Assembly (NCBI GenBank): GCA_022827095.1 | Contig: JAJDTP010000002.1 | Span: 1-56,162 of the forward strand | Direction: 5' to 3' | DNA: 56,162 bases | Source: Dehalococcoidia bacterium | GTDB lineage: Bacteria; Chloroflexota; Dehalococcoidia; Lucifugimonadales; UBA3495 | Shown here: positions 7,505-48,615 of the stretch, one piece after another | How positions within the stretch are numbered: the first letter of the stretch is position 1 | Layout: each line of letters opens with the position of its first letter | The notes under the pieces: generated by a model | Seen by the model: the letters and a program-made list of their open reading frames with translations, nothing else | The model's database searches: none | Told to the model about the DNA's origin: nothing | Made by a program: the position numbers and the translations under genes

Positions 7505-9877
7505 TTACACGCCTTTATCCATCCAATATCCGATGCGTCGTTTGGTGAAGATGTACTTGGGATCGCCAGCGTCGTCGCCCAGTTTGCGACGCAGCCTCCT
7601 GACGATGGCGCGCACTGGACCCGAGTTGCCGGAGTGGTCGTAGCCCCAAACCCTTTGCACCAGCTGTTCATGGGTCATGATCCTGCCCGCGTTGGCCGCG
7701 AGTTCGGCGAGCACCCGGTATTCGAAAGCTGTCAGCTCCAGAGGGTAGCCGGCCAGTGATGCTCTTCTTTCCGTGTAGTGAACCGTCAGGTCGCCCATGA
7801 CAAAAGGTTCCGCCTGGGCCGAGTAGCTCGGCGTTGCGTGCCGTCGACGCAGGGCCGCGTGGATTCTCGCCGTAAGCTCAGTGGGCGAGAACGGCTTGAC
7901 CACGTAGTCGGCCGCTCCCATCTCGAAGGCTCTGGCGATAATCTGATCCTGACCGTACGCGGAAAGGAAGATGACCGGCACCTCGGAGAGAGCGGGAACG
8001 GTCTGCATCAACTCAATCCCGTCAGTTCCCGGAAGCATGAGGTCCAGCAAAACAAGGTGCGGTTCCTCCTCGTCCACGAGTCTGGTCACCTCATCTGGGT
8101 TGCCGGTAACAACCGGAGTGAAACCCGCCTTCGTCAGGAGGTCCCGCACGTAGCGGAGCGCTTGCGGGTCGTCTTCGACCACCAGGATGCGCGAACGGAA
8201 GTCGGCCCGCCCCGCCCCACGAAGCGCTCCCCGGCGTCCCCTGTTCCGGGAGACGGCTGGGGCGACCTCGGCGATGGGAAGCGTAAAGGCGAAGCGCGCT
8301 CCCAGGCCAGGCCCATCACTCTCCGCCCAGATGCGTCCGCCGTGGGCCTCGACGATGCCCTTGCAAATCGCCAGCCCCAGGCCGGTATCTCCGCCCTGGT
8401 CCTCCGCCTCGAGACGTGAGAACTTCCGAAACAGTTGGGGAATCCGTTCGGCCGGGATGCCACGGCCCTCGTCTATGACCGAAACCTTAACGTGGGGCCC
8501 TTCCGCCTCACCGGTGATCCGAATGGCTGTTGCATCCGAAGAGTGCCTGGAGGCATTGGACAGGAGGTTGTTGATCACCTGGACGATGCGCCGCCGGTCC
8601 GCCATTGCCTCCGGAAGGCTCGCAGGCAGCTCCACGCGGATGTTGTTCCTTCCTCCCGCGGAAAGGTAGAGGCCCTTGGCCTCGTCGGTGAGGGCAGCCA
8701 ATTCCGTCGGCTCCGGAGCGACCGACAACGCCCCCGTTTCGATGCGAGCCACGTCCAGGAGCTCACCGATCAAGTCCCGCATCCGGTTGGTCTGGGTGTC
8801 GATGATCCGGTGAAACTGGGCGACCTCGGCGGGGTCCAGGGACGCGGTGGGATCCAGCAGGTTGGAAACGGATCCCTTGACCGAGGTCAGCGGAGCCCGC
8901 AGCTCGTGGCTGACCATCGCCAGGAACTCGGCCCGCAATCGCTCCGTCTCTTCCAGAGGGGTCATGTCCTGCATCGTGACGACGAACGACTCGACCACAC
9001 CCTCCCGGGAGTGAATGGGGGTGGCATTGATCAGGATGGTCACGCTGCGACCGTCAGGAACCCGGATGACGACCTCCTCAGTGCGAATTCGCTGGCCGGC
9101 GGCCATCGCCTCGGCCAAGGGCAGTTCCCGCAACGAGTACTCCCGGCCGTCAGCCCGCTGGAAGGTGAGCACGGCCAGGAGCTCATCCAAGGGGCCACCC
9201 GGGTCGTGCAGGGCGCTCGCGATCCTTTCCGTCTCCCGGTTGTATGACATCAGGGCTCCGGTCCTGGCGTCAAACACTGCCACGCCGACTGGGGACGTGT
9301 CGATCAGGGCCTCGACGTCGGCCCGGGCCCGCTGTTCGCGGCGATGCTGGCGGGCGTTGGCGATGACCAGTGCCGCCTGCGATGCGAACATTACCAGCGT
9401 TTCCTCGTCCTCCCGGGTGAACTCCTGGCCCGCCTCGCCCTTAGTCAAGTAGATCGTGCCGGAGACAACTCCGCCATGGAGGATCGGCGCCACCAGCAGC
9501 GACGTCACCAAGACCGAGGGGAGAAACTCCGGTAGGCCCAGGTTTCCAAACAGGGTCGCCACGTCCGCCACCCGCAGGGGAGCGTCGAGCCCGCTGAGAT
9601 ACTCGAAAAACGGGCGGCCCTCCGGCATATCCCAGAGGCCCTGGTGCTCCGTCTGGCTCATCCCCGAAACGATGAAGTCGGGCATCCGCCCCTCCTCGCC
9701 CAGGATCGTCATCGCCGCATAGCGGGCGCCGGTCAGCGCCCGCGCGTTATCCACCACGCTCTGCAGCACCGCATCGAATTCAAGGCTTCCGTTGATGCGC
9801 AGGCTCGCCTGGCTCAACTGGGTCAGGCGCTCCCGGAGGCCATCCACCTCTTGCTGTAACTCGGTCGCGCTCTTCAT
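7505..9877 (-). CDS. Fused GAF-PAS histidine kinase / receiver / OmpR-type winged-helix regulator
   Basis: A whole two-component pathway in one soluble chain. Numbered from ATG 9877 (790 aa): coiled start, GAF about 20-180, PAS about 187-305, HisKA with SHELRAP and phospho-acceptor His324, HATPase with NNLLSNASRH, DEGRGIP and GLGLAI (about 425-535), receiver about 563-680 with Asp612 and Lys661, and an OmpR/PhoB-type winged helix at about 692-790 ending RRIGYW. There is no membrane segment, so the signal is cytosolic. Longer starts exist up to 10000, but homologous kinases begin near this Met, and the longest start would place the shared cis element (9988-10036) inside the gene. It is the likely regulator of the surface-protein genes (inference). 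Confidence 0.85.
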   Translation of the reverse strand: MKSATELQQEVDGLRERLTQLSQASLRINGSLEFDAVLQSVVDNARALTGARYAAMTILGEEGRMPDFIVSGMSQTEHQGLWDMPEGRPFFEYLSGLDAPLRVADVATLFGNLGLPEFLPSVLVTSLLVAPILHGGVVSGTIYLTKGEAGQEFTREDEETLVMFASQAALVIANARQHRREQRARADVEALIDTSPVGVAVFDARTGALMSYNRETERIASALHDPGGPLDELLAVLTFQRADGREYSLRELPLAEAMAAGQRIRTEEVVIRVPDGRSVTILINATPIHSREGVVESFVVTMQDMTPLEETERLRAEFLAMVSHELRAPLTSVKGSVSNLLDPTASLDPAEVAQFHRIIDTQTNRMRDLIGELLDVARIETGALSVAPEPTELAALTDEAKGLYLSAGGRNNIRVELPASLPEAMADRRRIVQVINNLLSNASRHSSDATAIRITGEAEGPHVKVSVIDEGRGIPAERIPQLFRKFSRLEAEDQGGDTGLGLAICKGIVEAHGGRIWAESDGPGLGARFAFTLPIAEVAPAVSRNRGRRGALRGAGRADFRSRILVVEDDPQALRYVRDLLTKAGFTPVVTGNPDEVTRLVDEEEPHLVLLDLMLPGTDGIELMQTVPALSEVPVIFLSAYGQDQIIARAFEMGAADYVVKPFSPTELTARIHAALRRRHATPSYSAQAEPFVMGDLTVHYTERRASLAGYPLELTAFEYRVLAELAANAGRIMTHEQLVQRVWGYDHSGNSGPVRAIVRRLRRKLGDDAGDPKYIFTKRRIGYWMDKGV

Positions 9878-34629: not shown

Positions 34630-35499
34630 TCAATTGCCGAAAAGCCGGCGGGATATTCGGCGCAGTCGCCGGCGCAACCAATCCATGCGAAACAGGTTTC
34701 GGGCGAAGTAAATGGATGCGGAGAGGCCGACGAGCCCGGTAGCGACCGCCGCGAAACACAACGTCCCGAAGAGGACTTTCCACGCGCCTTCGGTTATCCA
34801 TTCGGGTACTTGGTGCGTCCCGTCCTGGCTGATGTTCAGGATTATGACGATAACGACGCCCAAGATGGTGACCGCAACCAAAAATACTCCGAACAGTACG
34901 ACTGGCTCCATTGCCGCTCGGCCCCGTTCGGTTTCCCGCTCCAGATTGGACTCCACCCTCGACATATAGCTCCAGCTCACCTGATCCTGGTTCGCCAGGG
35001 CTTTCTGCAAGCGTTCCCAAGTGGAATCTTTCGGAAATTCCTTTGGGTCCTTGATCCCCGGCGTGCTGTGAAGTTCAAAGGTGAAAACGTCCGCGCCCGG
35101 CAGGAGCCTGATCGACTCATTGCCCAGGTTGGCCACTCGGATGAACAGTCGTTCATCGGTGCGCCCCTGACCGTAGCCCGGATCCACCTGTATGCCCATC
35201 AACCCGGTCAATCCCTGCCGGGCATATTGGAGCCTGATGCCGATTTTGCCGACGAGGTCGTTGGGCATGCACAGCTTTTCTTTGGTGGACAGTATGGCTA
35301 TCTGGCCAGGCCTGATCTCGATGTACGGCCCCCTGATGTGACACCCTGGTGGATAGTGTTCTCCGTCTACCACGAGGCCGTCCGAAGCCACCCGAAGGGC
35401 GTAGGACGCTTCCTTGATGAATGCGCAGTCCCACGTTTTATGGACGAATATTTCCCCACGTTCGGCTCTGGATTGTATGTTGGCGCCGCTGAGGATCAT
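34630..35499 (-). CDS. dCTP deaminase/dUTPase-fold domain fused to two transmembrane helices (289 aa)
   Basis: Residues 1-145 follow the dCTP-deaminase fold: MILSG start, RPGQIAILSTKEKL, MPNDLVGKIGIRLQYARQGL, VDPGYG, ANLGNESIRLLPGADVF. In my alignment to E. coli Dcd the RSSLAR motif is IRLQYAR and the catalytic Glu in the VLEFYN strand is Arg121 (FIRVAN), so deamination is unlikely. Two hydrophobic helices follow (about 198-222 and 241-265), then a basic tail. The catalytic-dead ligand fold on a two-helix membrane module suggests a nucleotide sensor with a membrane output (inference). It is the last gene of the operon, with AGGAG about 11 nt before the ATG. Confidence 0.7.
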   Translation of the reverse strand: MILSGANIQSRAERGEIFVHKTWDCAFIKEASYALRVASDGLVVDGEHYPPGCHIRGPYIEIRPGQIAILSTKEKLCMPNDLVGKIGIRLQYARQGLTGLMGIQVDPGYGQGRTDERLFIRVANLGNESIRLLPGADVFTFELHSTPGIKDPKEFPKDSTWERLQKALANQDQVSWSYMSRVESNLERETERGRAAMEPVVLFGVFLVAVTILGVVIVIILNISQDGTHQVPEWITEGAWKVLFGTLCFAAVATGLVGLSASIYFARNLFRMDWLRRRLRRISRRLFGN

Positions 35500-35671: not shown

Positions 35672-37366
35672 CTAAGAAAGTCCATATGGTCGGACTTCGT
35701 CTGGAACCAAGTCGTTGATGCGCCATTTGGGAGGGTACTGGAATGCTATCGCCTCCGAAGTGGGCCGGTACTGTTGTTTGATGCGGCGGCGTTCGCTGGT
35801 TCCCTGTACGCTGGGGTGCGCAACCCGAGCGTATTTCGACACCTCGCAAAACAGGTTTTGACAGTCAATCAGCTGTAGCGGCCTGCCCCAAAGTGACCGA
35901 AACTCCAGCTCCCGTTGTTCGAATTCGCGTTCTTGACGTTCGGTCACCAGCCGTATCATGTCGGCCTCGTTCAGCCCCCCAAGGTCGTCGAAGCACTTGC
36001 GCAGGCCGTCCTTGGCTCCCGGTCCGGCGACGACGAATTCCATTTCCGAGAAATCGCAGAGCTCGCTGTAATTCAGATCCGTAACGTATTGATAGGCCAG
36101 AAAATCGCCAACCGTCGGATACGAGCGCAGTATCTCGAATGCCGCTTTCATGCTGGCGGCGTCCGCTATTCGGTACGCCACGCGGTCGCGCATTAGCATC
36201 TCCAGCAGCCTCAAGTGATTGCGGTGCTTTTCCCGGTGGCCGAAAGCGTTCCTGCCAGACGGCATGATGTAGGCGGCGGAGTATATGGCCGACTTGGTTG
36301 CCATTGCGGCGGTCAGGATTCGATCGTAGCGATCATAAGAGTAATCCTCGAACGTGATGCCACCGAGTTCTGAGGACAGCAATTCCCACGTTTTGATCCT
36401 GTTGAAGAGTTTGAACAGGATGATCCGGAAGAAGATCTCTTCCGGGGCCTGGTCACCCTCGTATATGACATTGCGGATCAGATATTGGCTGACCCGATCT
36501 GACGCCCGATAAGCGTTGGTGAATTTGTACCGTGCAAGGATCGGATCTTGCGTCCACGGGGGAGGTTGTCCCTCCAGTTTTCGAAAGAAGACGGCCTGCC
36601 GCTCGGCAGCAAACTTCCAAAAGGTGTCGTAGACGACGGTAGTACGCGCAGGGGACAAGGACGTCAAGATGGGCGGGTTCTTCTGGACAGGGTCCCTTAC
36701 TGCCGCTTGGCTCGTGGCGCTCGTGGACCGGGTCGGCGCCCCATTGTGTGCCTCCAGCTCTTCCGACAAATGCGCCAGCATGAGGCCCACGGCTTCCCGG
36801 ACGGTCCCATTGTTCTCTACCCGCGTGACCGGATACTTGCCGCACTCCCCTTGCGCGAGTTGTTCGTATCCTGCGCGGAGGCGGTCCGTGTAACCATTAC
36901 CGGATCCCGCAACGGTTCGGTCCACAAGGAATATGACGCTGGGCCGGGTGTCCGTCCACAGCTGGCGTTCGACGGCGACCATGGCCTCCAGTATTTCGGG
37001 GTCGCCTCCTGCGCAGATGCCGTAGACCCACATTGACCACCAGCATCGTTCGAGCACTACCCAATGACCCTGCGCCAAAGCGGGTTGAATGATCCGCTCG
37101 ATCATGTCGAGGTGTGCCGCAAGGTGGAGAGCTTGAAGGCTGTTGGGCGTTATGTCCTCCAACCCGAACTCTTCCGGATGGTGGTGTACACGGTTCACCA
37201 GCCGCCCGAGGGTGGCTTCAGCATCGCCCGGGAAGGCGGCGTGCAAGCACGAGATGCGGCGCGAAGCCAGTTCCTCAGCCAAGGCCCCGGCGAGGGTCGA
37301 TTTGCCGACTTCGTCGGGTCCTTCCAAAATGATCAGAGCCCCCGGCCCCTTCGGTTCAGCCAACAT
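35672..37366 (-). CDS. dTMP-kinase-like domain fused to an HMUDK-type base-hypermodification helical domain (564 aa)
   Basis: Residues 1-205 are a thymidylate-kinase-like P-loop domain: GPDEVGKST (16-24), HWVVLERCWWSMWVYG in place of the DRY region, and SVIFLVDR. Residues 235-555 match the helical domain found in 5-hydroxymethyl-dU DNA kinases and putative thymine-hypermodification enzymes: TTVVYDTFWKFAAERQAVFF, KFTNAYRASDRVSQYLIRNV, FFRIILFKLFNRIKTWE, YIMPSG, DFLAYQYVTDLNYSE, VVAGPGAKDGLRKCF, LQLIDCQNLFCEVSKY and a final YPPKW. It overlaps the thymidylate-synthase-like gene by 11 bp. The fusion would phosphorylate and further decorate a modified thymidine. Phage counterparts do this on viral DNA; the bacterial role is unproven. 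Confidence 0.75.
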   Translation of the reverse strand: MLAEPKGPGALIILEGPDEVGKSTLAGALAEELASRRISCLHAAFPGDAEATLGRLVNRVHHHPEEFGLEDITPNSLQALHLAAHLDMIERIIQPALAQGHWVVLERCWWSMWVYGICAGGDPEILEAMVAVERQLWTDTRPSVIFLVDRTVAGSGNGYTDRLRAGYEQLAQGECGKYPVTRVENNGTVREAVGLMLAHLSEELEAHNGAPTRSTSATSQAAVRDPVQKNPPILTSLSPARTTVVYDTFWKFAAERQAVFFRKLEGQPPPWTQDPILARYKFTNAYRASDRVSQYLIRNVIYEGDQAPEEIFFRIILFKLFNRIKTWELLSSELGGITFEDYSYDRYDRILTAAMATKSAIYSAAYIMPSGRNAFGHREKHRNHLRLLEMLMRDRVAYRIADAASMKAAFEILRSYPTVGDFLAYQYVTDLNYSELCDFSEMEFVVAGPGAKDGLRKCFDDLGGLNEADMIRLVTERQEREFEQRELEFRSLWGRPLQLIDCQNLFCEVSKYARVAHPSVQGTSERRRIKQQYRPTSEAIAFQYPPKWRINDLVPDEVRPYGLS

Positions 37367-38165
37367 GCTCGTCCTCGCCGACTCGCAGCAGCGCCAGCCG
37401 CGGTTGTTCCAGCGTTTCGTTCACCTTTTCGTACAGGGAGGTCAGCTTGAATTTGGCGATGTTCCCTCGGACGGCCGGCGTCGCGATGCAAGTAACTTTT
37501 GAGAACGGCAGTCCCATTTCGTGGGCCATGAAGCGGCCCAGGCGGCAGAGCCCCAGGTAGTTGCCGTAGGCTTTCTCAGTGATGTATTGGGTCGGGTAAA
37601 AACCCGTCACCGCCAGTCCTCCAGTTTCGTCCTTGGCGAAGGCAACCTGCTGCAGGCACGGGAACCCGCGTCGACGCTGCATCGTATGATCGACGCGCGG
37701 GTCAAACACTGCCGCCTGCAACGCGGTGCGGCGAGCGTGGCCAGTTTTCCAGACCTTGATGATATGCTCCAGCTGGTTGATCCCGCCCGTGCCGTCTCTG
37801 TCGCAGCCGTAAGCCATCAAGCGCTGGAAGTAGAGTCCGTTGTTGTTGCCGGCGTGGCGCCTGAGGTGAGGAATCAATGGCCGGTAACGCTGGAACAGCT
37901 GTTCGCCGGTCAATGCGGGGTTCCACATGCTTTGGGGGAAAATAGTGTTCGCCACCGTGTGACAGGACTGATCACCGAGGCCGGTCAGCATTCGGTCGAG
38001 ATCCTGTCGGATCACAGGGAGTTCGGCGGGTTCGTCGCTACCGCCGACACGCACAGTCACGACCAAGGGCGAGATTTCTTTGAACCGCCACACAGCGAGG
38101 AATGCCTTGCCCCACGCCAGCGACAGGTTGGTTTCGTCAATGACCACAGGGTTCCTCTGCATCAT
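37356..38165 (-). CDS. Thymidylate-synthase-like enzyme, candidate dUMP hydroxymethylase (269 aa)
   Basis: The start is set at the ATG-ATG at 38165/38162 inside the end of the ImmA-like gene (29-bp overlap), because homologous proteins begin at NLSLAWGKAF. The order fits ThyA-superfamily enzymes: DHTMQRRRGFPCLQQVAF with the presumed nucleophile Cys170, then LAVTGFYPTQYITEKAYGN. The Asn of YGN (Asn202) aligns with the ThyA Asn that selects dUMP over dCMP. It is clearly not housekeeping ThyA, lacking the usual C-terminal region. Next to a hypermodification kinase, formation of 5-hydroxymethyl-dUMP is the likeliest reaction (inference). Confidence 0.7.
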   Translation of the reverse strand: MMQRNPVVIDETNLSLAWGKAFLAVWRFKEISPLVVTVRVGGSDEPAELPVIRQDLDRMLTGLGDQSCHTVANTIFPQSMWNPALTGEQLFQRYRPLIPHLRRHAGNNNGLYFQRLMAYGCDRDGTGGINQLEHIIKVWKTGHARRTALQAAVFDPRVDHTMQRRRGFPCLQQVAFAKDETGGLAVTGFYPTQYITEKAYGNYLGLCRLGRFMAHEMGLPFSKVTCIATPAVRGNIAKFKLTSLYEKVNETLEQPRLALLRVGEDEHVG

Positions 38166-39012
38166 CGTCCGGCAGATGCCTGAACACGCTTCGCCCCACG
38201 AAACCTCGTTTCGAGACCCTGATGAAAGCCGAGAAACCGGCCCTGCTCTCCATCTTGCCGATGCCCGGCCGTGTTGCGCGCCACAGCGAACCGCCGTTGG
38301 CCGCCCCCACAAGTTCCACGCAGTTTCCTTCGGCGGTAACAGTTTCGGGTGCGAAGACCAACGTCCCCGTTTCCACGTCTATGGGGCGGTGTGTCCAACA
38401 GTGGTCGACTGGCACCACAGGATCTCGTACATCTAATCCCAAGAGCATGGCTTGGGCTTGCCTGGGTGAGACCTTCAGGAGCGCGGTCGCGCGCGGCTTG
38501 TTGAGCAAGCCCAACCCCCGGTGCAGGTGGTGGACCAAGGTCGAGTAACCGACCCCGAAGTACTGGCTGATGGCGTAGATTTGGTCTGGAGCCGTCCCGT
38601 CGATAGGCCACCCTCGCAGCGTGAAGGCCCTTTGAATCGCCATCTTGGGCATCAGCAGCGCACCGGCGAAGCAATCGGCTTTGAACTCTTTCACGTCCAC
38701 TTTTTCATCACGCTGGCCGTCCAGCAGTTCATCGACTGTCGTCCCGTCGCCGTTGTTGTGGTGTCCGAGTTCGTGGGCGCAGGTGAATGCGGTCCTGCCC
38801 GGCGGACGCAACGACGACAGGATGATGTTTGGCTGGACGCCGGCGACGTACATACCCTCCAGGCTCGGTACGTTGATGAACCGGACTTCGACTCCGAGAC
38901 ACTCGGCCAGGTCGAGCACCGAGATGGGACTCAGCAGGTCCAGACCGGCGGCTCTGCGCATACGCAAAGCTTCGCCGAACGCCTGCTTGACGACTTCCTT
39001 ACGTCGGTACAA
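38137..39012 (-). CDS. ImmA/IrrE-family metallopeptidase (291 aa)
   Basis: The zinc site is HELGHH (His80, Glu81, His84), followed by EFKADCFAGALLMP with Glu109, as in M78 ImmA/IrrE proteins. The last 150 residues (about 140-291) form an extra domain of unknown role. In ImmR-ImmA pairs the protease cleaves an XRE repressor on a damage signal. Here the XRE gene lies 3 bp upstream, which fits such a pair. The stop codon lies inside the next gene. Confidence 0.85.
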   Translation of the reverse strand: MYRRKEVVKQAFGEALRMRRAAGLDLLSPISVLDLAECLGVEVRFINVPSLEGMYVAGVQPNIILSSLRPPGRTAFTCAHELGHHNNGDGTTVDELLDGQRDEKVDVKEFKADCFAGALLMPKMAIQRAFTLRGWPIDGTAPDQIYAISQYFGVGYSTLVHHLHRGLGLLNKPRATALLKVSPRQAQAMLLGLDVRDPVVPVDHCWTHRPIDVETGTLVFAPETVTAEGNCVELVGAANGGSLWRATRPGIGKMESRAGFSAFIRVSKRGFVGRSVFRHLPDDDAEEPCGH

Positions 39013-39015
39013 GGT

Positions 39016-39357
39016 TCAATTGTCCTGGTTGGATTTGAGGGAACTGATCAAATCGAGCAAGAGGTCAATGTCCTCGTCTCGCAGTTGGCTCAACTTCCGT
39101 GCCGCCAGCATGGTCCTGGCGCTGGCAATCTGCGGTTCCTGCTCGCCAAGGATCCAGGGGATATTGACTGCGTAGAGGTCCGCGAGGAGCGACAGTTCTT
39201 CGGCGGAAACCTTTCGGCGGCCGGCTTCTATCTGTGAGAGGGTGGGTCTGTGCCACCCCAGTTGTCTTGCGGCCTGACCCTGGGAGAGGCCGGCCGTCTC
39301 CCGCGCTAGTCTGAGGCGGTTGGCTATCTCCAGACGCACGGTGGTTTCATCACTCAT
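39016..39357 (-). CDS. XRE-family HTH repressor (113 aa)
   Basis: From ATG 39357: a helix-turn-helix at about residues 12-66 (LRLARETAGLSQGQAARQLG, HRPTLSQIEAGRRKVSAEEL). An acidic C-terminal helix follows (LRDEDIDLLLDLISSL). It overlaps the end of the acyl-carrier-like gene by 8 bp and precedes the ImmA-like protease. It is the obvious candidate to bind the GGTAAGA operator at 39660-39687 and repress the operon, with relief by ImmA cleavage (inference by analogy with ImmR/ImmA). Confidence 0.85.
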   Translation of the reverse strand: MSDETTVRLEIANRLRLARETAGLSQGQAARQLGWHRPTLSQIEAGRRKVSAEELSLLADLYAVNIPWILGEQEPQIASARTMLAARKLSQLRDEDIDLLLDLISSLKSNQDN

Positions 39358-39640
39358 GTCTGGTGCTCCCGGGCTGCGTCGCCTGGACGACGAAGTCGGC
39401 GATTTCGCCAATGGACGGGACACGTTGGCCTTCGCGGCCGGTGAAGAGGTGGTCCGGGAGTTCATGGCCCACGGAATCGGACAACAATACCGTGGCTTCC
39501 ACTCCACTCAAGCTGTCGAAGTCATCCAGATCTCGTAGCGGGCGCGTGTTCGGGCCCAGGTGAGCGGATCCCATTCCGCTACATTCGCGAACTTGCCGGA
39601 TCGCGCCGATCACCTGTTGCATGGCCTGGTCCCTGTTCAT
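39350..39640 (-). CDS. Acyl-carrier-protein-like small protein (96 aa)
   Basis: ATG 39640 has GGAG 6 nt upstream. The chain has an ACP-like profile: an amphipathic first helix, then LRDLDDFDSLSGVEATVLLS in which Ser43 occupies the phosphopantetheine-serine place (D-S-L), and a final SIGEIADFVVQ helix. Length fits carrier proteins. It is the first gene of the operon. A carrier would make sense if an acyl or aminoacyl group is attached to a modified base. A degenerate or unrelated helical protein is possible. Confidence 0.5.
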   Translation of the reverse strand: MNRDQAMQQVIGAIRQVRECSGMGSAHLGPNTRPLRDLDDFDSLSGVEATVLLSDSVGHELPDHLFTGREGQRVPSIGEIADFVVQATQPGSTRHE

Positions 39641-39659
39641 CTTCCGCTCCGTACGTATT

Positions 39660-39687
39660 GGTAAGAAAATCTTACCAGTCGGTAAGA
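39660..39687. promoter_or_regulatory. Operator with three GGTAAGA half-sites
   Basis: GGTAAGA-AAA-TCTTACC (39660-39676) is a perfect inverted repeat, and a third GGTAAGA lies at 39681-39687, 21 bp from the first and so on the same DNA face. It begins 20 bp upstream of the first start codon of the operon, the usual place for an XRE autoregulator. The promoter core itself I cannot place with confidence. Confidence 0.65.
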
Positions 39688-40019
39688 ACGGAGTCAACGG
39701 TGTGATCCTCTCGGCAGCACGAGGTGGCGGGATGGGCCCGTTCGGGCCTAACGTGGACGGGCTGAGGTTGTCGTCGGACGATGTAGCGTCGAGCGCACAT
39801 CGCCGGACAATGAGCAGAACTCAGCCGAAGGGACTGGAGCCATGCGGGCCTACACGCGCGCTCCCGTTGCCCACCTCGAACTCCCGCCGGACGACCGGTA
39901 GTGGTTCAACCTTCAAGTGCGCTAGCAGCGTCAGCCAGTCGTTCGCCACGAGTTCCTGGCTTGGAGTGCTCCAGGGCACGAGTGTAGTCGGCCATTGACG
40001 AAATGCCCTAGCCTCGGAG
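39688..40019. other. Gap between the hypermodification operon and the MazG-like gene
   Basis: Holds the operon promoter side and a GGGCCCGTTCGGGCC hairpin near 39736-39750. Short peptides can be read on both strands (for example 29 aa on the minus strand, 39995 to 39906) but none is convincing. Confidence 0.4.
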
Positions 40020-41282
40020 CTAAGTGCGAGTGCTCCCGGCCGGGGTGTCGGCCATCCAGATCGCGCCCTGTTCAAGGTCAGCGCGGATGTGTCCTTCGCC
40101 GGCTCCCCTAACTTCGCGCCAGATCTTGAAACCGGTCACGATGGCTTGTTCCCAGTCGGCCTCGATACGGCGCGCGACTTCGAGGTGCTCCGTCCACTCC
40201 CTGATGCTGCGCAACAGCTTGTAGTCCACGGTTTTAACACCGTCCAGGAAGTTCCGTCTGGCGGCATAGTCAAAAACAAATGCGGAAATCCCCTCTTCCA
40301 CCACCATGGCCCGCCCGCCGTCTTCCGTTTCGTCGACTTTGGGGTTGCTCTTGCGCTTTCGTTTCAAGAGGGCGCGCGCCGTGGGCGACCATCCCAGCAT
40401 CGACGCGAATGACAGGTGGAAAACGTCGTGGAACCGGTATCCGTCATCGGCGTAGTGGTTGTCTGTCAGCGGGGTGCCAAAGTCGTTGCCGTTCACGGTT
40501 GTCACCGTTCGGCCGTGCCCATCGGGTCTGATGAAGATGTCCATCTTCCTGGGAAAGCGTTCGTTTTCGGCGTAGTCTTCGTCGAATAACTGGTAGCCCG
40601 GCCGTTGCGGGGAAGGCGGTCCCCAACGCCTGTCAACCTTTTCCAGATTGAAGCGGGCGACGTCCTCGAGGTTAAGATCGTAGTGAGAGGCAACGTTGGA
40701 CAGGCGCCGGATCAGTATGCCCAACTGATCCTTCACCCGTTCAGGCTGTGCCGCGTATTGATCCCCAAACTGGAACCACTCTTCGTATTGGCTCAACAAT
40801 GATCCGACGTTTCCGGCCAGGGCGAACAACGGGACCAATACCCGGTAACCCCCGCTGCTGGATTCCTGTGGTCGGTCTGGTGGACCAACCCGACTGAACG
40901 TGCGCTGATAATCGTTGAGTTCGATGCCCGTAAGAGAACGGGCAGGGTCGGACCACACGTTCGCGTCGGGTAGGCTCCTTCCGAGAGCGCTGACCTGTAC
41001 GTGGTTAGCTAGCGCAACGTCCCCCAAATGGAAGCCATGCTTGGTTGCAACATTCGACAGGTACCACAGGAGGTCGCCCAATTCCTCCGTAACTCTCTCC
41101 GGGAAGAGCGTGTATGACCGCCCATCGCGGAGCCACTTCTTGTGTTCCGCCAACAGTTCTCCGGCTTCTCCGGCTAAACCTAGTAGCGGAACCATCATGA
41201 GGTCAAGATGGTCTTGGACCGCTCCCATTCCAGCTTGTTGGTCGGTCTGACTTGCCAGCACTTGGTATTCGTCAAAATTCAT
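40020..41282 (-). CDS. MazG-like nucleotide pyrophosphohydrolase with degenerate second MazG repeat and MazG_C-type tail (420 aa)
   Basis: ATG 41282 is preceded by GGGGAGGT 9 nt upstream. Residues about 15-100 form a MazG domain with intact metal motifs (GEAGELL: Glu39, Glu42; EELGDLLWYL: Glu67, Asp70). A second copy (about 145-215) keeps the fold signature (PLFALAGNVGSLL, DQLGILIRRLSNVA) but lost these acids, so it is probably structural. The last 200 residues (YRFHDVFHLSFASMLGWSPT, VVEEGISAFVFDYA) resemble the C-terminal domain found in MazG proteins linked to modified-base systems. It would hydrolyse a (d)NTP to the monophosphate and so feed or protect the pathway next to it. Confidence 0.75.
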   Translation of the reverse strand: MNFDEYQVLASQTDQQAGMGAVQDHLDLMMVPLLGLAGEAGELLAEHKKWLRDGRSYTLFPERVTEELGDLLWYLSNVATKHGFHLGDVALANHVQVSALGRSLPDANVWSDPARSLTGIELNDYQRTFSRVGPPDRPQESSSGGYRVLVPLFALAGNVGSLLSQYEEWFQFGDQYAAQPERVKDQLGILIRRLSNVASHYDLNLEDVARFNLEKVDRRWGPPSPQRPGYQLFDEDYAENERFPRKMDIFIRPDGHGRTVTTVNGNDFGTPLTDNHYADDGYRFHDVFHLSFASMLGWSPTARALLKRKRKSNPKVDETEDGGRAMVVEEGISAFVFDYAARRNFLDGVKTVDYKLLRSIREWTEHLEVARRIEADWEQAIVTGFKIWREVRGAGEGHIRADLEQGAIWMADTPAGSTRT

Positions 41283-43226: not shown

Positions 43227-46200
43227 CTACCGCCAGTCCCGCCGGCCGTGGTGGTCCAGGTCAATCCCCAGCGGCCAGGCCTTTTGCACCGCCACGTTGA
43301 GGGTGTCGTCACGGCGGGACACCTGGCCCTCCACCACGACGAGAGAGCAGCGCAGCGCGCCCTTGAGCCACTCCCACTGGGCCGACCAGACGGCCAAGGG
43401 TATCAGTCCAAACTCGTCCTCCAGGGTCAGGAACACCGCGGCCGCCAGAGGGCGCTGCCGGCGCACCACCCGGCCGGCCACACGCACCACGTCGCCGTCA
43501 CAACAGCCCAGCAGACCGTCGCTGGTCAGTACCTCAGACCCAAGTTGGGGGCGCAGCAGCTCCATCACGTGACCATCGGGACAAAGACCCAGCATGGCGT
43601 ACTCGTCCAGCATTCGCCGGGCGAGGGAGGCTGCGGTTAGAGCTGATGGCGGATTGGCAGCGGGCAGCGGCAGGGCCAACTGGCCGCGGCGCACGCCGGA
43701 CACGTAGCCGGCGCCCACCTGCCACAGGACGCTGCGGCGGTCGGTGCAGTCGGACAGCGCATCCATGGCACCGGCTCGCGCCAAGTTCTCCAGAGCCTCT
43801 CTCGTCAAGCCCGAACGGGCCAGCAGGTCCGACAGGTCAGTGAATGACCCGGCCTCCCGGGCCCGCAGGAGCGTCTCCCCCAAGCGACTGTCCACGCCCT
43901 TGACGAAGGTCAGGCCCAGGCGCATGGTGTCGTCGCCTTCGGCAGTGCAGAGCAACTCGGAGCGGTTCACGTCGGGATGGGCCACACGTAGGCCCAGCCG
44001 GCGGGCGTCCTGCTTGAGGGTATCCAGGTCCCAGAAGCCCATGGGCTGCTCGTTGAACAGGGCCACGAAGAACTCCAGCGGATGATACCGGCGCAGCCAC
44101 GCCATCTGGTAGGCGGTGAAGGCGAAGGCGACGGCATGGCCCTCGGGAAACATGTAGTGAGGGTTGAACTTGCCGAAGATCGTCTCGGCAGCGTCTACCG
44201 GAACCCCACGCTCCCCGGCCCCGGCGATGAACCGCTCCCGGTACTGAGCCACCAATTGTTGCCCGTCGCGACGCCCGAAAGCACGACGCATCCGGTCGGC
44301 CTCGGCGGCGGTGAACCCGCCCACGTCCATGCCCAACTGCACCACCTGGTCCTGGAACATGATCACCCCCATGGACCGTTCCAACGCATTCTGCTCCAAC
44401 GGGTGGTCGTAGTCCCAGGCGATGCCCTCCCGGCGGCGCAGGAACTCGGCCACGCCGTCGTTGGCGCCCACGCCGGGCCGCACCGCGGCCACCTCCAGGG
44501 CCAGGTCGTAGATGTCCTCCGGCCGCATCCTGACGATGGTCTGCATCTGGGCGGCGGACTCCACCTGGAAGACGCCCACGGTGTCGCCCCGCCCCAAGTC
44601 CTCGAAGACACCGGTGTCGCGATAGTTGATGCGGCTCAGGTCGGGCTCGACGCCGGCGCGGTTCCTCACCAGCCGGACGGCCTGCTGCATCTGGGACAGG
44701 GCGCCCAATGCCAGCAGGTCGATCTTGAGCACGCCGGCGTCGTCAACGCTGTCCTTGTCCCAGTGGGCCACGTAGCGACCTTCGATTGCCGAAGGCTGGA
44801 TGGGCACCAGGTCGGTGAGGGGCGTGGACGACACCAGCATCCCGCCGGGGTGTTGAGCCAATCCCTTGGGAAAGCCGGCCAGCTGTCCCGACAGGGCCAG
44901 CAGGTCTCGCCAGCCGGGGCGGTCATGACGAGCCAGCAGGGTGGGCGCGGCGGACAGCTCCGCAGGGGAGTCGGTCTCCAGACTTCGGGCCAGGGCGGCC
45001 ACCTCTTCCGCGGGCAGGCCCAGCGCCTTGCCCAGGGCTCGCACGATCCCCCGCGCCTTGTAGGTCGGCATCATGCCGGCCAGGGCGGCGTGGTCCCAGC
45101 CCCACTCCTCGATGACCCGCAGGATGAGCCGTTCCCGGATGTTGCGGGGGAAGTCCAAGTCAATGTCGGGCACGACGGCAGTTTCAGAGGACAGGAAACG
45201 GTCCAGGGCCAGCCCGTACTCCAAAGGGTCCACGTGGGAGAGGCCGATGAGGTAGCCCACCAGCATGGACACCGAGGAACCCCGGCCCCGCCCCGGTGGC
45301 AGCCATTCCAAGGGAGTTTCCGAGTGGCCGTAGCCCAGTTCCAGCATGCACTCCCGGGCCAGCTCCACGATGCGGTGATAGACCAGGAAGAACCCGGCCA
45401 GCCCGTGGCGGCCGATCAGGTCGAACTCCTGGTCCAGCCGCTCTCGCACCTTCCGCTCAACGTGCCCGTAGCGTCGTGCCGCCGACTCCTCACACAGGCG
45501 ACGCAGCCAGGAATGGGGGTCATAGCCCGGCGGCACAGGACAGTCCGGGTAGGCGTAGCGGCCGCCCAGGTAGTCGGGCAGGCTGAAGCCGGAGCAGCGT
45601 TCGGCGATTGCTAGGGTGTTGGCCACGGCGTCCGGGCAGCAACGGAACAGGGCCGCCATCTCCTGAGGCGACTTCAGCCAGTACTGGCGGTTCACCTTCA
45701 GTTGGTCCCGCACATCGGACAACGGACGGTTGAGCCGGATGGCGGTCAGGGCGTCATGCAACCTGCTCCGTCCTCGCCAGTGGTACCACGGCTCGTTGGT
45801 GGCGACGGTTGCCACATCGCAACGCTCGGCCAGTTCGCGCAACCGCTTGTTGCGCACGGTGTCGCCGTGAACCAGATGCTGTTGCAACTCAAGGAACACA
45901 TTGCCCGGTCCGCACCAGCCGCGGTAGCGTTCCACCAATGCCTGAGCTGACGCCCACTCACCATCCTGAAGCAGCCGGGCCAGAACACCGTCCGGCGCAC
46001 CCAGCAGGACGATCAACCCGCCGGCGTGGGGTTCCAAGAAACGTGCGTCCAGAACAGGCTCGGTTCGACCTCCGGTCACGTGGGCCAGTGATACCAGCCG
46101 GCACAGATTGGCGTAGCCCTCTCCGGTTTCGGCAATGAGGGAAACGATGCCATCGCCCTCAGGGTCACGCACCGTCAGGTCCACGCCGAGGATGGACTGA

Positions 46201-46415
46201 ACGCCGGCGTCCCGGCACTGCCGGCTGAACTCCAATGCCCCGCAGAGATTGGATGCGTCGGTCAAGCCCAGGGCCGGATATTCCAGTTCCGCGGCGCGGT
46301 CCACCAGCTCAGCGGTGGAGGACGCGCCGGCGCCGAAGCTGTACCAGCTGTGCCCCCGCAACTCCACGTAATCGGCAACGCGGGTCACGTCAGTAACCCT
46401 GCCGGAACCATTCAC
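43227..46415 (-). CDS. dnaE2: Error-prone DNA polymerase III alpha subunit DnaE2 (ImuC) (1062 aa)
   Basis: A C-family polymerase of DnaE2 length. The N-terminal PHP domain (about 10-75) has lost metal ligands: LHCHS is LRGHS and the LTDHDGL motif is LTDASNL, so proofreading by PHP is unlikely. The catalytic PDIDLDFP (416-423) is present, as are GRGSSVSMLVGYLIGLSHVD, the HPGGM and FQDQVVQL segments and a C-terminal OB fold (VVRVAGRVVRRQRP, FLTLEDEFG). It overlaps the end of imuB by 26 bp, the usual mutasome arrangement. It carries out translesion synthesis after DNA damage together with ImuB. Confidence 0.92.
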   Translation of the reverse strand: MNGSGRVTDVTRVADYVELRGHSWYSFGAGASSTAELVDRAAELEYPALGLTDASNLCGALEFSRQCRDAGVQSILGVDLTVRDPEGDGIVSLIAETGEGYANLCRLVSLAHVTGGRTEPVLDARFLEPHAGGLIVLLGAPDGVLARLLQDGEWASAQALVERYRGWCGPGNVFLELQQHLVHGDTVRNKRLRELAERCDVATVATNEPWYHWRGRSRLHDALTAIRLNRPLSDVRDQLKVNRQYWLKSPQEMAALFRCCPDAVANTLAIAERCSGFSLPDYLGGRYAYPDCPVPPGYDPHSWLRRLCEESAARRYGHVERKVRERLDQEFDLIGRHGLAGFFLVYHRIVELARECMLELGYGHSETPLEWLPPGRGRGSSVSMLVGYLIGLSHVDPLEYGLALDRFLSSETAVVPDIDLDFPRNIRERLILRVIEEWGWDHAALAGMMPTYKARGIVRALGKALGLPAEEVAALARSLETDSPAELSAAPTLLARHDRPGWRDLLALSGQLAGFPKGLAQHPGGMLVSSTPLTDLVPIQPSAIEGRYVAHWDKDSVDDAGVLKIDLLALGALSQMQQAVRLVRNRAGVEPDLSRINYRDTGVFEDLGRGDTVGVFQVESAAQMQTIVRMRPEDIYDLALEVAAVRPGVGANDGVAEFLRRREGIAWDYDHPLEQNALERSMGVIMFQDQVVQLGMDVGGFTAAEADRMRRAFGRRDGQQLVAQYRERFIAGAGERGVPVDAAETIFGKFNPHYMFPEGHAVAFAFTAYQMAWLRRYHPLEFFVALFNEQPMGFWDLDTLKQDARRLGLRVAHPDVNRSELLCTAEGDDTMRLGLTFVKGVDSRLGETLLRAREAGSFTDLSDLLARSGLTREALENLARAGAMDALSDCTDRRSVLWQVGAGYVSGVRRGQLALPLPAANPPSALTAASLARRMLDEYAMLGLCPDGHVMELLRPQLGSEVLTSDGLLGCCDGDVVRVAGRVVRRQRPLAAAVFLTLEDEFGLIPLAVWSAQWEWLKGALRCSLVVVEGQVSRRDDTLNVAVQKAWPLGIDLDHHGRRDWR

Positions 46416-47817
46416 CAGTGTCCAGGTCGCGGTACACCGTCAGCAGACCGCCGTCGGTGAGAGCCAGTCTCCAGTAGCGCCGGTACACCGGCTCCGGCGT
46501 CCACCATTCGGTGTCCACCTCCCACCGGTCAACCACCTGCTCCACCGGCCGCCAATGTCTGTCACCTGTCTTGACCCGTCGGGGAGCGCCGCTCACGGAC
46601 TCAACGGACGCTTTGGCCGGCAGGTTGAGAGGCCTTAGCGATGCGTCCAATGCCCACCGCCGCTCCGGCATCGCCGACCCAGGAACCATGGCTGCCAGCC
46701 GCTCCACTCCGGCCACGTCACCGATGTTCGCCACCCGCTCGGGTTGCCAGATGGTGGCCTGGCACCCGGTTTCAGCAGTGAGAGCGCCGACGGTCAGCGA
46801 CAGATCCAGCAGGGGAGCCTCGGGCCAGCGGCTGCCACCGGCGGCGTCCCGCGCTCCCAATCCAGCCAGCAGGGAGCGCGCCAAGGCGTCTGCCGACCCG
46901 GCCGGCTGTCGCAGTGTGCGCTCAAACCGCCAGTGTCCGCCGGAGAGGAGCTCCCCCTGGAGAGTTGCTTCACCCACGCGGCGCGCCCGCAGCAACGCCG
47001 AACGCCACAATCGTTCGGTCAGCGAGTTGACGCCGGCCTCGATGGCCGGAACCGTGTCCACCGGGAAGGGGAACTCCAGCTGCTCCGACAAACATTCCGG
47101 CAACGGCGTGGGAAGCACGGGCTCCGGGTCGATGCCCTGGGCCAGTTGCCAGGCCCTGATCCCATCCGGCCCCATGAACTCCGCCAGCGATGATGCTGAG
47201 ATTTTCGCCACGTCGCCCAATGTGCGAATGCCGAAACTCTGCAAACGTCGTATGGCGTCGCCGTCCAGCGGCAGCCAGGACACCGGGAGCGGCGCCAGCC
47301 AGCAGGCGGCGTCGGTAGGAACCTGCCGCCAACCTCCAGCCTCTGCCCGGGCCGCCGCGCAGTAGGCGGGAAACTTGCCCATCCCGACGCCCAGGCGGGG
47401 ACGCAGCCATTCCGCGGCGGTGGACAACAGCACCTTGGCCAGCTCGTCGGTTCCGCCGTACATTCCGGTCATTCCCGTCAGGTCCAGGTAGAACACGCCC
47501 CAGCCGTCCGCTTCCACCGCGGGAACGAAGTCCCACAGCGCTGCCAGCAAGCCGTCGTTGACCCCGGACAGATACTCGGTGTCCAACGGCAGCGTAACGG
47601 CGTCAGCACAACGGGATAAAGCCTCGGCAACGGTCTGCCCGACCGCCACGCCAACCGCCGCTGGAGAAGCGTCCAGTGCCTGCGGGCGAGTGGTGTTGCC
47701 GGTAGTAATGATCAACGGCCGACTGGCTAATTCCGGCCGGCGTCGCAGTTCGGCCTTGACCGGCAGGTGGGTGACCAGCAGGCAGCCAGTGAGTTTAGGG
47801 CTTTCGGAAAAGTTCAT
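46390..47817 (-). CDS. imuB: ImuB, inactive Y-family polymerase partner of DnaE2 (475 aa)
   Basis: From ATG 47817. The N-terminal region carries a Y-family-like palm and fingers (GVAVGQTVAEALSRC, FYLDLTGMTGMYGG, GVGMGKFPAYCAA), followed by a helix-hairpin-helix (IRRLQSFGIRTLGDVAKIS) and a little-finger-like domain. The C-terminal ImuB-type region has SVSGAPRRVKTGDRHWRPVE, EWWTPEPVYRRYWRL and a WFRQGY end. ImuB bridges DnaE2 to the sliding clamp. No imuA or lexA is next to it. The gene is divergent from the SRAP gene, 117 bp away. Confidence 0.88.
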   Translation of the reverse strand: MNFSESPKLTGCLLVTHLPVKAELRRRPELASRPLIITTGNTTRPQALDASPAAVGVAVGQTVAEALSRCADAVTLPLDTEYLSGVNDGLLAALWDFVPAVEADGWGVFYLDLTGMTGMYGGTDELAKVLLSTAAEWLRPRLGVGMGKFPAYCAAARAEAGGWRQVPTDAACWLAPLPVSWLPLDGDAIRRLQSFGIRTLGDVAKISASSLAEFMGPDGIRAWQLAQGIDPEPVLPTPLPECLSEQLEFPFPVDTVPAIEAGVNSLTERLWRSALLRARRVGEATLQGELLSGGHWRFERTLRQPAGSADALARSLLAGLGARDAAGGSRWPEAPLLDLSLTVGALTAETGCQATIWQPERVANIGDVAGVERLAAMVPGSAMPERRWALDASLRPLNLPAKASVESVSGAPRRVKTGDRHWRPVEQVVDRWEVDTEWWTPEPVYRRYWRLALTDGGLLTVYRDLDTGEWFRQGY

Positions 47818-47934
47818 GAGGGCAATGCTATTAGCACGCCTGTACGATCCGCAACGTCCCGCTGTCATCAACTGGCAATTTCCCCCGTGCTACCATAGCC
47901 GTGACTTCGATTGTTCTCCCACAGGGTGACCGGA

Positions 47935-48615
47935 ATGTGCGGAAGAATCTGTTTGTTCGCCGAGCTGGGAGGCCTGGCTTCCCAGTTCCGGTTCAATCCC
48001 GGCTTGGTCGAGGAAGCCTACCGTCCCTCCTGGAACATCGCGCCCACCGCCCCGGTTCTGGCGGTAATGGCAGCGAATGGCGAACATCGGGCCGGCATGG
48101 TGCGCTGGGGCTTCACCTCCAGTGCCCGCCGGAGTGGCGGCGGTTCATCGCGCCCGCTGTTCAACGCCAGAAGCGAGACACTGACGGAACGCCCCGCCTT
48201 CCGCGCGGCTTTCGTCGGACGTCGCTGCCTGGTTCCCGTCAACGGCTTCTACGAGTGGCGCGACGAGGGCAACGGGCGGGCGCCCCTATGGATTCACCGG
48301 GTCGACGAACGGCCCTTCGCCCTCGCCGGCATCTACAACGCCGGACCCGACGACGTGGCGGCGTGCGTCATCACCTGCGCGCCCAACTCGTTGATGCAAC
48401 CCATTCACCACCGGATGCCCGTCGCGCTGGCCGATGACGAATACGACGCCTGGCTGGCCCCGGAGACCAAACCGGAAACGCTCCACGACCTGCTGGCGCC
48501 CCGAGAATGGCCGGACCTGGCGGCGCGGCCGGTATCCGGCGCGGTCAACCGAGCCGGGGCCGATGGCCCGCAGCTGATCGCGCCGACGGTTGCCGCCTCG
48601 CCCCGGTTGCTGTGA
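47935..48615 (+). CDS. SRAP-domain protein (YedK/HMCES family), abasic-site crosslinker (226 aa)
   Basis: The start is fixed by biology: the Met must be cleaved to expose Cys2 (MCGR). Other catalytic positions are Asn77 (NARSET), Glu107 (FYEW) and His159 (HHRMP). SRAP proteins form a thiazolidine crosslink with abasic sites in single-stranded DNA and so protect forks. Divergent pairing with imuB-dnaE2 suggests common damage control. I looked for a LexA-type palindrome in the 117-bp gap and found none that is convincing. Confidence 0.9.
   Translation: MCGRICLFAELGGLASQFRFNPGLVEEAYRPSWNIAPTAPVLAVMAANGEHRAGMVRWGFTSSARRSGGGSSRPLFNARSETLTERPAFRAAFVGRRCLVPVNGFYEWRDEGNGRAPLWIHRVDERPFALAGIYNAGPDDVAACVITCAPNSLMQPIHHRMPVALADDEYDAWLAPETKPETLHDLLAPREWPDLAARPVSGAVNRAGADGPQLIAPTVAASPRLL

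Follow-up and report, generated by a model that had tools for sequence, protein, structure and literature searches.

We found that the six-gene operon on the minus strand of the window (the whole 56,162-nucleotide stretch of Dehalococcoidia DNA that was analyzed) is preceded by a palindromic site that is conserved across phyla and very probably serves as an autoregulatory operator, at which the operon's XRE-family protein would repress its own synthesis until the ImmA-type peptidase encoded next to it cleaves it. This reading draws on sequence patterns and on analogy with known repressor-peptidase pairs. The coordinates of the site, of its promoter, and of the genes are collected in Table 1.

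Table 1. Operator, promoter, and gene features, in window positions.
Feature	Position	Strand	Evidence and remarks
Triple half-site operator region	39660-39687		Sequence GGTAAGAAAATCTTACCAGTCGGTAAGA
Operator core: palindrome GGTAAGA-N3-TCTTACC, 17 bp	39660..39676	.	Sequence; kept in 41/43 related operons
Third half-site GGTAAGA, -35 side of core, 4-bp gap	39681..39687	+	Sequence; upstream copy in 8/41 loci vs 1.7 expected
Degenerate GTACGG near the relatives' usual place of the third half-site (GTAAGG)	39649..39654	-	Alignment by eye; downstream third half-site in 29/41 loci vs 2.9 expected
-35 hexamer TTGACT	39692..39697	-	Promoter match; TTGACA-like box at 16-18 bp in 21/41 loci vs 0.6 expected
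-10 hexamer TAAGAT, within operator core	39669..39674	-	Spacer 17; 9/12 matches; TG before -10
Probable Shine-Dalgarno GGAG of first gene	39647..39650	-	Sequence
Carrier-protein-like gene, 96 aa, first in operon	39350..39640	-	Ser43 invariant in 35 homologues; Pfam PP-binding in 10/35; ACP fold
XRE-family repressor (putative), 113 aa	39016..39357	-	Pfam HTH_31/HTH_3; PADLOC capH 2e-11; model matches ImmR DNA-binding domain 7t8i
ImmA/IrrE-type (M78) metallopeptidase, HELGH motif	38137..39012	-	Pfam Peptidase_M78 4e-14; capP 4e-14; motif invariant in alignment A2
Thymidylate-synthase-like protein	37356..38165	-	NCBIfam TIGR03283 4e-11, below its cut-off
dTMP-kinase-like domain fused to 5-hmdU DNA kinase (HMUDK_hel)	35672..37366	-	Pfam PF02223 + PF18723 (PF18723 5e-114)
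dCTP-deaminase-like domain, hydrophobic C-terminal segments	34630..35499	-	Pfam DCD; segments read from sequence
MazG-MazG-MazG_C protein, upstream of operon, same strand	40020..41282	-	Pfam

Read on the coding (minus) strand, the site runs TCTTACC-GACT-GGTAAGA-TTT-TCTTACC. The centers of its half-sites are spaced 10 and 11 bp, or about one helical turn, which places all three on the same face of the helix. The earlier note had described a perfect inverted repeat with a third in-phase GGTAAGA about 20 bp from the first start codon of an operon that encodes an XRE protein and ImmA; the repeat and the third half-site are present at 39660-39687, the distance from the end of the site to the ATG at 39640 (minus strand) is 19 bp, and the operon encodes both the XRE protein and an M78/ImmA peptidase in which the HELGH motif is intact. 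The window contains four copies of GGTAAGA, against a shuffle-based expectation of 2.4, and three of the copies fall within the 28 bp of the site. No second copy of the palindrome was found in the window with up to 3 mismatches allowed, and the 17-bp palindrome without mismatches has a single occurrence in the 3.79-Mb genome.

The site also coincides with the promoter. TTGACT-17-TAAGAT (minus strand, 39697 to 39669) is the sole sigma70-type match in the surrounding 8.5 kb, and the predicted transcription start lies about 22 nt, including the GGAG, from the ATG. Because one half of the palindrome holds the -10 hexamer and the other half the predicted start, a protein bound there would block the promoter. 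The core lies over the -10 box in most related loci as well.

To sample relatives, we selected loci by the sequence of the peptidase, and the operator played no part in the selection. The kinase domain gave strong matches in 6 of 40 related genomes, 3 of which (L025, L027, and L029) contain the upstream portion of the operon in full, with the small first gene, XRE, and ImmA; the palindrome precedes the small gene in all three. An alignment of the ImmA sequences of these three loci and of the window (alignment A2) served as the query for scanning genome contigs, and the scan yielded 47 loci, of which 44 resemble the same system. Their record titles name Chloroflexota (Dehalococcoidia), Bacteroidota, Acidobacteriota, Cyanobacteriota, Planctomycetota, Verrucomicrobiota, Pseudomonadota, and Actinomycetota, or groups within these, at least eight phyla in all, with the proviso that many loci are metagenome bins with uncertain names and that our counts treat loci as independent.

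Conservation was scored in the 120 bp before the first gene of 43 distinct loci, the window included and two near-identical loci dropped. In 41 of them, from at least eight phyla, we found a match to GGTAAGANNNTCTTACC at 11 to 14 of 14 positions, located 11 to 62 bp before the first gene. Taking the best match favors the pattern, a bias for which the shuffles and the control loci account: shuffled 120-bp stretches average 8 of 14 (P ≤ 0.01 for each of the 41 loci), and the best match within 1 kb of 21 loci with other kinds of ImmA gene is 10 of 14. The earlier note had made its reading depend on conservation of a palindrome at orthologous promoters, and this prediction was borne out (41 of 43 distinct related operons versus 0 of 21 loci with unrelated ImmA genes, the cut-off being the same for both groups). 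When six plasmid or viral loci were added (47 loci), the core GTAAGAT-N2-TCTTAC carries approximately 1.1 to 1.95 bits per position, mostly above 1.5, and the flanks are near 0 bits except at the -35 box and the third half-site. Between loci whose repressors are less than 50% identical, the 15-bp core is on average 82% identical versus 26%, the chance level, for the 30 bp upstream; recent transfer of the whole DNA stretch, therefore, does not account for the conservation. An operator kept across phyla within randomized flanks shows that the operon moves with its own switch. On one IMG/VR contig (L087, 392-8423), a carrier-XRE-ImmA-ThyS-MazG cassette with the operator lies between terminase-like and portal-like genes, as if prophage-borne.

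The third half-site differs in position among the loci. A GTAAGG or GTAAGA half-site is found 3 to 6 nt downstream of the core in most relatives, over the ribosome-binding region, where it often merges with the Shine-Dalgarno sequence; the window belongs to the minority with an upstream copy. This refines the arrangement given in the earlier note.

Changes in the repressor's recognition helix mostly come with a changed or absent site. Across 38 repressors, residues R37, P38, E42, E44, G46, and R48 in and around the recognition helix are invariant or nearly so. At locus L033, where the helix reads CGTPKISNIEAGII, both the helix and the site are lost, and L061, with HRQT in place of HRPT, has GGCAA-type half-sites. 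A sister group with differing helices (e.g., PRSAISDIERG or RRSAISEMEAG), composed of Streptomyces and C1-peptidase relatives, has 7-3-7 palindromes of other sequence, such as TGTCGTA-N3-TACGACA in two Streptomyces plasmids and TGTCTGA-N3-ACAGACA in Sulfitobacter, although these palindromes come from few loci and a lenient search rule. At L071, the site is absent and the recognition helix is only modestly changed (KRPA); this locus was counted against the operator reading, which none of the tests run contradicts. Together, these observations support but do not prove co-evolution of site and recognition helix, and the natural helix and site variants offer a ready test of repressor specificity. 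Farther along the same 38 repressors (alignment A4, window residues 85-89), a C-terminal AAR is invariant and the E/K-L that follows nearly so; this AAR(E)L region may be a region of cleavage or dimerization.

The site is also rare in genomes. Allowing one mismatch in the 15-bp core, we found one near-exact site in each of three genomes (G008, G037, and G427), at the operon, and three in a genome from the same GTDB family as the window's assembly (G022), one of them at the operon. In three genomes that have the kinase without XRE-ImmA at the locus (G001, G019, and G017), that locus has no near-exact site. The switch seems to serve mainly or only the carrier-XRE-ImmA operon. Among viral contigs, 38 contain the exact 17-mer, and in one of these, the same one found by the protein search, it lies in front of the system. 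The other 37 occurrences, which have no operon, are most likely due to chance; the sequence alone is thus no proof of the system and a poor means of finding it.

Could the conserved sequence be a promoter and nothing else, with TAAGAT an unusual -10 box and the remainder fortuitous? The middle half-site does hold a -10 hexamer at the right distance from TTGACT, and the T at core position 8 (40 of 47 loci) is kept more strictly than its mirror partner (19 of 47), as a -10 box requires. The latter fits a -10 box superimposed on the palindrome. However, the mirror half TCTTAC, which is no promoter element, is conserved as strongly as the left half. Moreover, Gastranaerophilales (L053, L055, and L058) have a distinct promoter, TTGACA...TATACT, on the downstream side of the palindromes, and in most Bacteroidota loci (e.g., L063, L065, L068, and L073) the palindrome is followed just downstream by TAnnTTTG, the type of promoter element used in Bacteroidota. 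Both groups keep the palindrome apart from the -10 box, which indicates that it is conserved independently, as an operator and not merely as a promoter; the promoter-only explanation is largely refuted, and we regard it as very improbable. Still less credible is that the repeat forms an RNA hairpin or intrinsic terminator, an explanation to which we give practically no weight: TCTTACCGACTGGTAAGA-TTTT was scored as terminator-like, but this hairpin uses the window's extra upstream half-site, which is missing in most relatives, and lies ahead of the operon's first start codon, and the region shows no excess of terminator-like sites (11 found versus 8.8 expected). On these grounds, the terminator reading was rejected.

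Two further explanations accept a regulatory site and differ in the protein or its action. We infer the pairing of the XRE protein with the site from sequence, so the site might instead be bound by a regulator of the host that has no relation to this XRE protein. Yet operon and site occur together in at least eight phyla, on plasmids, and on prophage-like contigs, and a change in the XRE recognition helix is accompanied by a change in the site; we consider a host regulator extremely unlikely. Alternatively, the XRE protein could be an activator-repressor similar to the controller (C) proteins of restriction-modification systems, which would raise early expression and later repress it. The XRE model does resemble C.BclI and C.AhdI, and multiple half-sites are typical of C-protein operators. 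A core over the -10 box and the start site, however, is in a repressing position, and the adjacent peptidase, a partner that C proteins lack, suits derepression; although it is the least implausible of these alternatives, we judge this one unlikely too.

Returning to autorepression relieved by ImmA, we propose that a dimer of the XRE repressor would bind GGTAAGA-N3-TCTTACC over the -10 box and the predicted start and so block RNA polymerase, and that the additional half-site, at a distance of one turn, probably brings in a second repressor subunit and makes repression tighter. The inducing signal is probably single-stranded DNA from damage or phage replication, by analogy with CapP and IrrE/PprI: single-stranded DNA activates CapP, which cleaves CapH (PMC13373217, PMC10233336), and activates PprI to cleave DdrO (PMC10904395). 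Cleavage of the repressor by the ImmA-type peptidase would then allow expression of the whole operon, the repressor included. The peptidase's zinc-binding HEXXH motif (AHELGHH) is invariant in the four orthologues of alignment A2, and the XRE-family helix-turn-helix gene lies directly beside the M78 peptidase gene, an arrangement kept in related loci. A sequence search of solved structures with XRE and ImmA returned designed proteins only; the fold search was informative. For the XRE model (pLDDT 86), the nearest match is the DNA-binding domain of ImmR (TMt 0.93, rmsd 0.5); further fold matches are the C proteins named above and DdrO.

In relatives, the MazG-MazG-MazG_C gene lies within or beside the operon. 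No operator-like site was seen in the sequences inspected upstream of this gene, where a second target of the switch might have been located. In the window (35672-37366) and in several relatives, a single protein combines the dTMP-kinase-like and 5-hmdU-kinase domains; at L036, L059, L060, and L032 they are separate, or the dTMP-kinase-like domain is missing. The thymidylate-synthase-like gene of L025 has an in-frame stop (position 7534), which is either real or an assembly error. Beside the operon in the window (43227-48615) we noted by eye genes for a DnaE-type polymerase and a Y-family-polymerase-like (ImuB-like) protein and, oppositely oriented, an SRAP/YedK-like gene (MCGR start), a neighborhood that resembles a damage-mutagenesis cassette.

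The conserved carrier-protein gene at the head of every operon is the unexpected part of the system, and it raises the new question of what the switch or the chemistry draws on. A small first gene precedes XRE in 44 of 44 loci examined. In the window, its product has no match in Pfam or PADLOC and contains a D-S-L motif. Ser43 is the sole invariant residue in the homologues and sits at the position of the phosphopantetheine serine; the structure model has a four-helix ACP fold, with ACP folds as the top structural matches (probability 1.00, but E of approximately 0.01). In several plasmids, the first gene is annotated publicly as "acyl carrier protein." A holo-ACP synthase gene (acpS) lies beside the operon in three rhizobial plasmids (L108, 10853-11227; L110, 5972-6310; L158, 1-234), from Sinorhizobium fredii, Rhizobium rosettiformans, and R. 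ruizarguesonis, consistent with a carrier protein that is phosphopantetheinylated.

At four loci (L113, L159, L160, and L158), carrier-XRE-ImmA occurs with a C1 (papain-like) peptidase gene in place of the thymidylate-synthase-like gene. A uracil-DNA glycosylase gene adjoins this type in three cases (L113, L159, and L160), and L158 also has a dCTP deaminase and a 5-hmdU kinase. In these loci, the same control cassette seems to carry a second type of cargo. Because the carrier-like gene stays with XRE-ImmA where the thymidine-modification cargo is replaced (L113, L159, and L160), we tentatively suggest, as a possibility that we hold to be somewhat doubtful, that carrier, XRE, and ImmA might be the three parts of a portable control cassette, with the carrier protein contributing to sensing or gating. 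If so, an immune-type operon would be switched by an acyl or other thioester-bound group, besides or instead of DNA damage.

Among known systems, ImmR-ImmA of ICEBs1, which controls a conjugative element, is similar in the DNA-binding domain of ImmR, the nearest fold match of the XRE model, and in the adjacency of repressor and peptidase; to our knowledge, it has no carrier-protein gene. CapH-CapP likewise pairs an XRE repressor with an M78 peptidase in an immune-type operon and provides the best PADLOC matches for both proteins, by profiles that have no curated cut-off (capH and capP, E = 2e-11 and 4e-14, 43 and 51 bits, with partial coverage of capP). The similarity is moderate, and here a carrier-protein gene precedes the repressor. 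No link to a CBASS operon was found, the cargo being thymidylate-synthase-like, kinase, deaminase-like, and MazG genes of a nucleotide/5-hmdU pathway. The DdrO-IrrE (PprI) system of Deinococcus is comparable: its XRE repressor, which is cleaved by an M78 peptidase, binds a palindromic motif (RDRM) situated near transcription starts or over them (PMC8072749, PMC10904395). DdrO is also among the fold matches. Whereas the DdrO regulon comprises about 20 genes, the genomes searched here have few or no further near-exact sites. Finally, a betaproteobacterial kinase gene, searched at the DNA level against E. coli genomes, gave no match, and the E. coli relative was not located. As presented in the main text of the DefensePredictor study (PMC13092281), thymidylate synthase, dNMP kinase, and 5-hmdU DNA kinase domains, the same unusual enzyme domains as in the window's operon, are newly validated in anti-phage defense in E. 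coli, and ImmA control is not mentioned in that text. In the literature that we found, the regulation of these phage-defense enzyme domains is undescribed, and the site makes the control of this widespread operon, whose enzyme domains have recently been tied to phage defense, accessible at the level of sequence.
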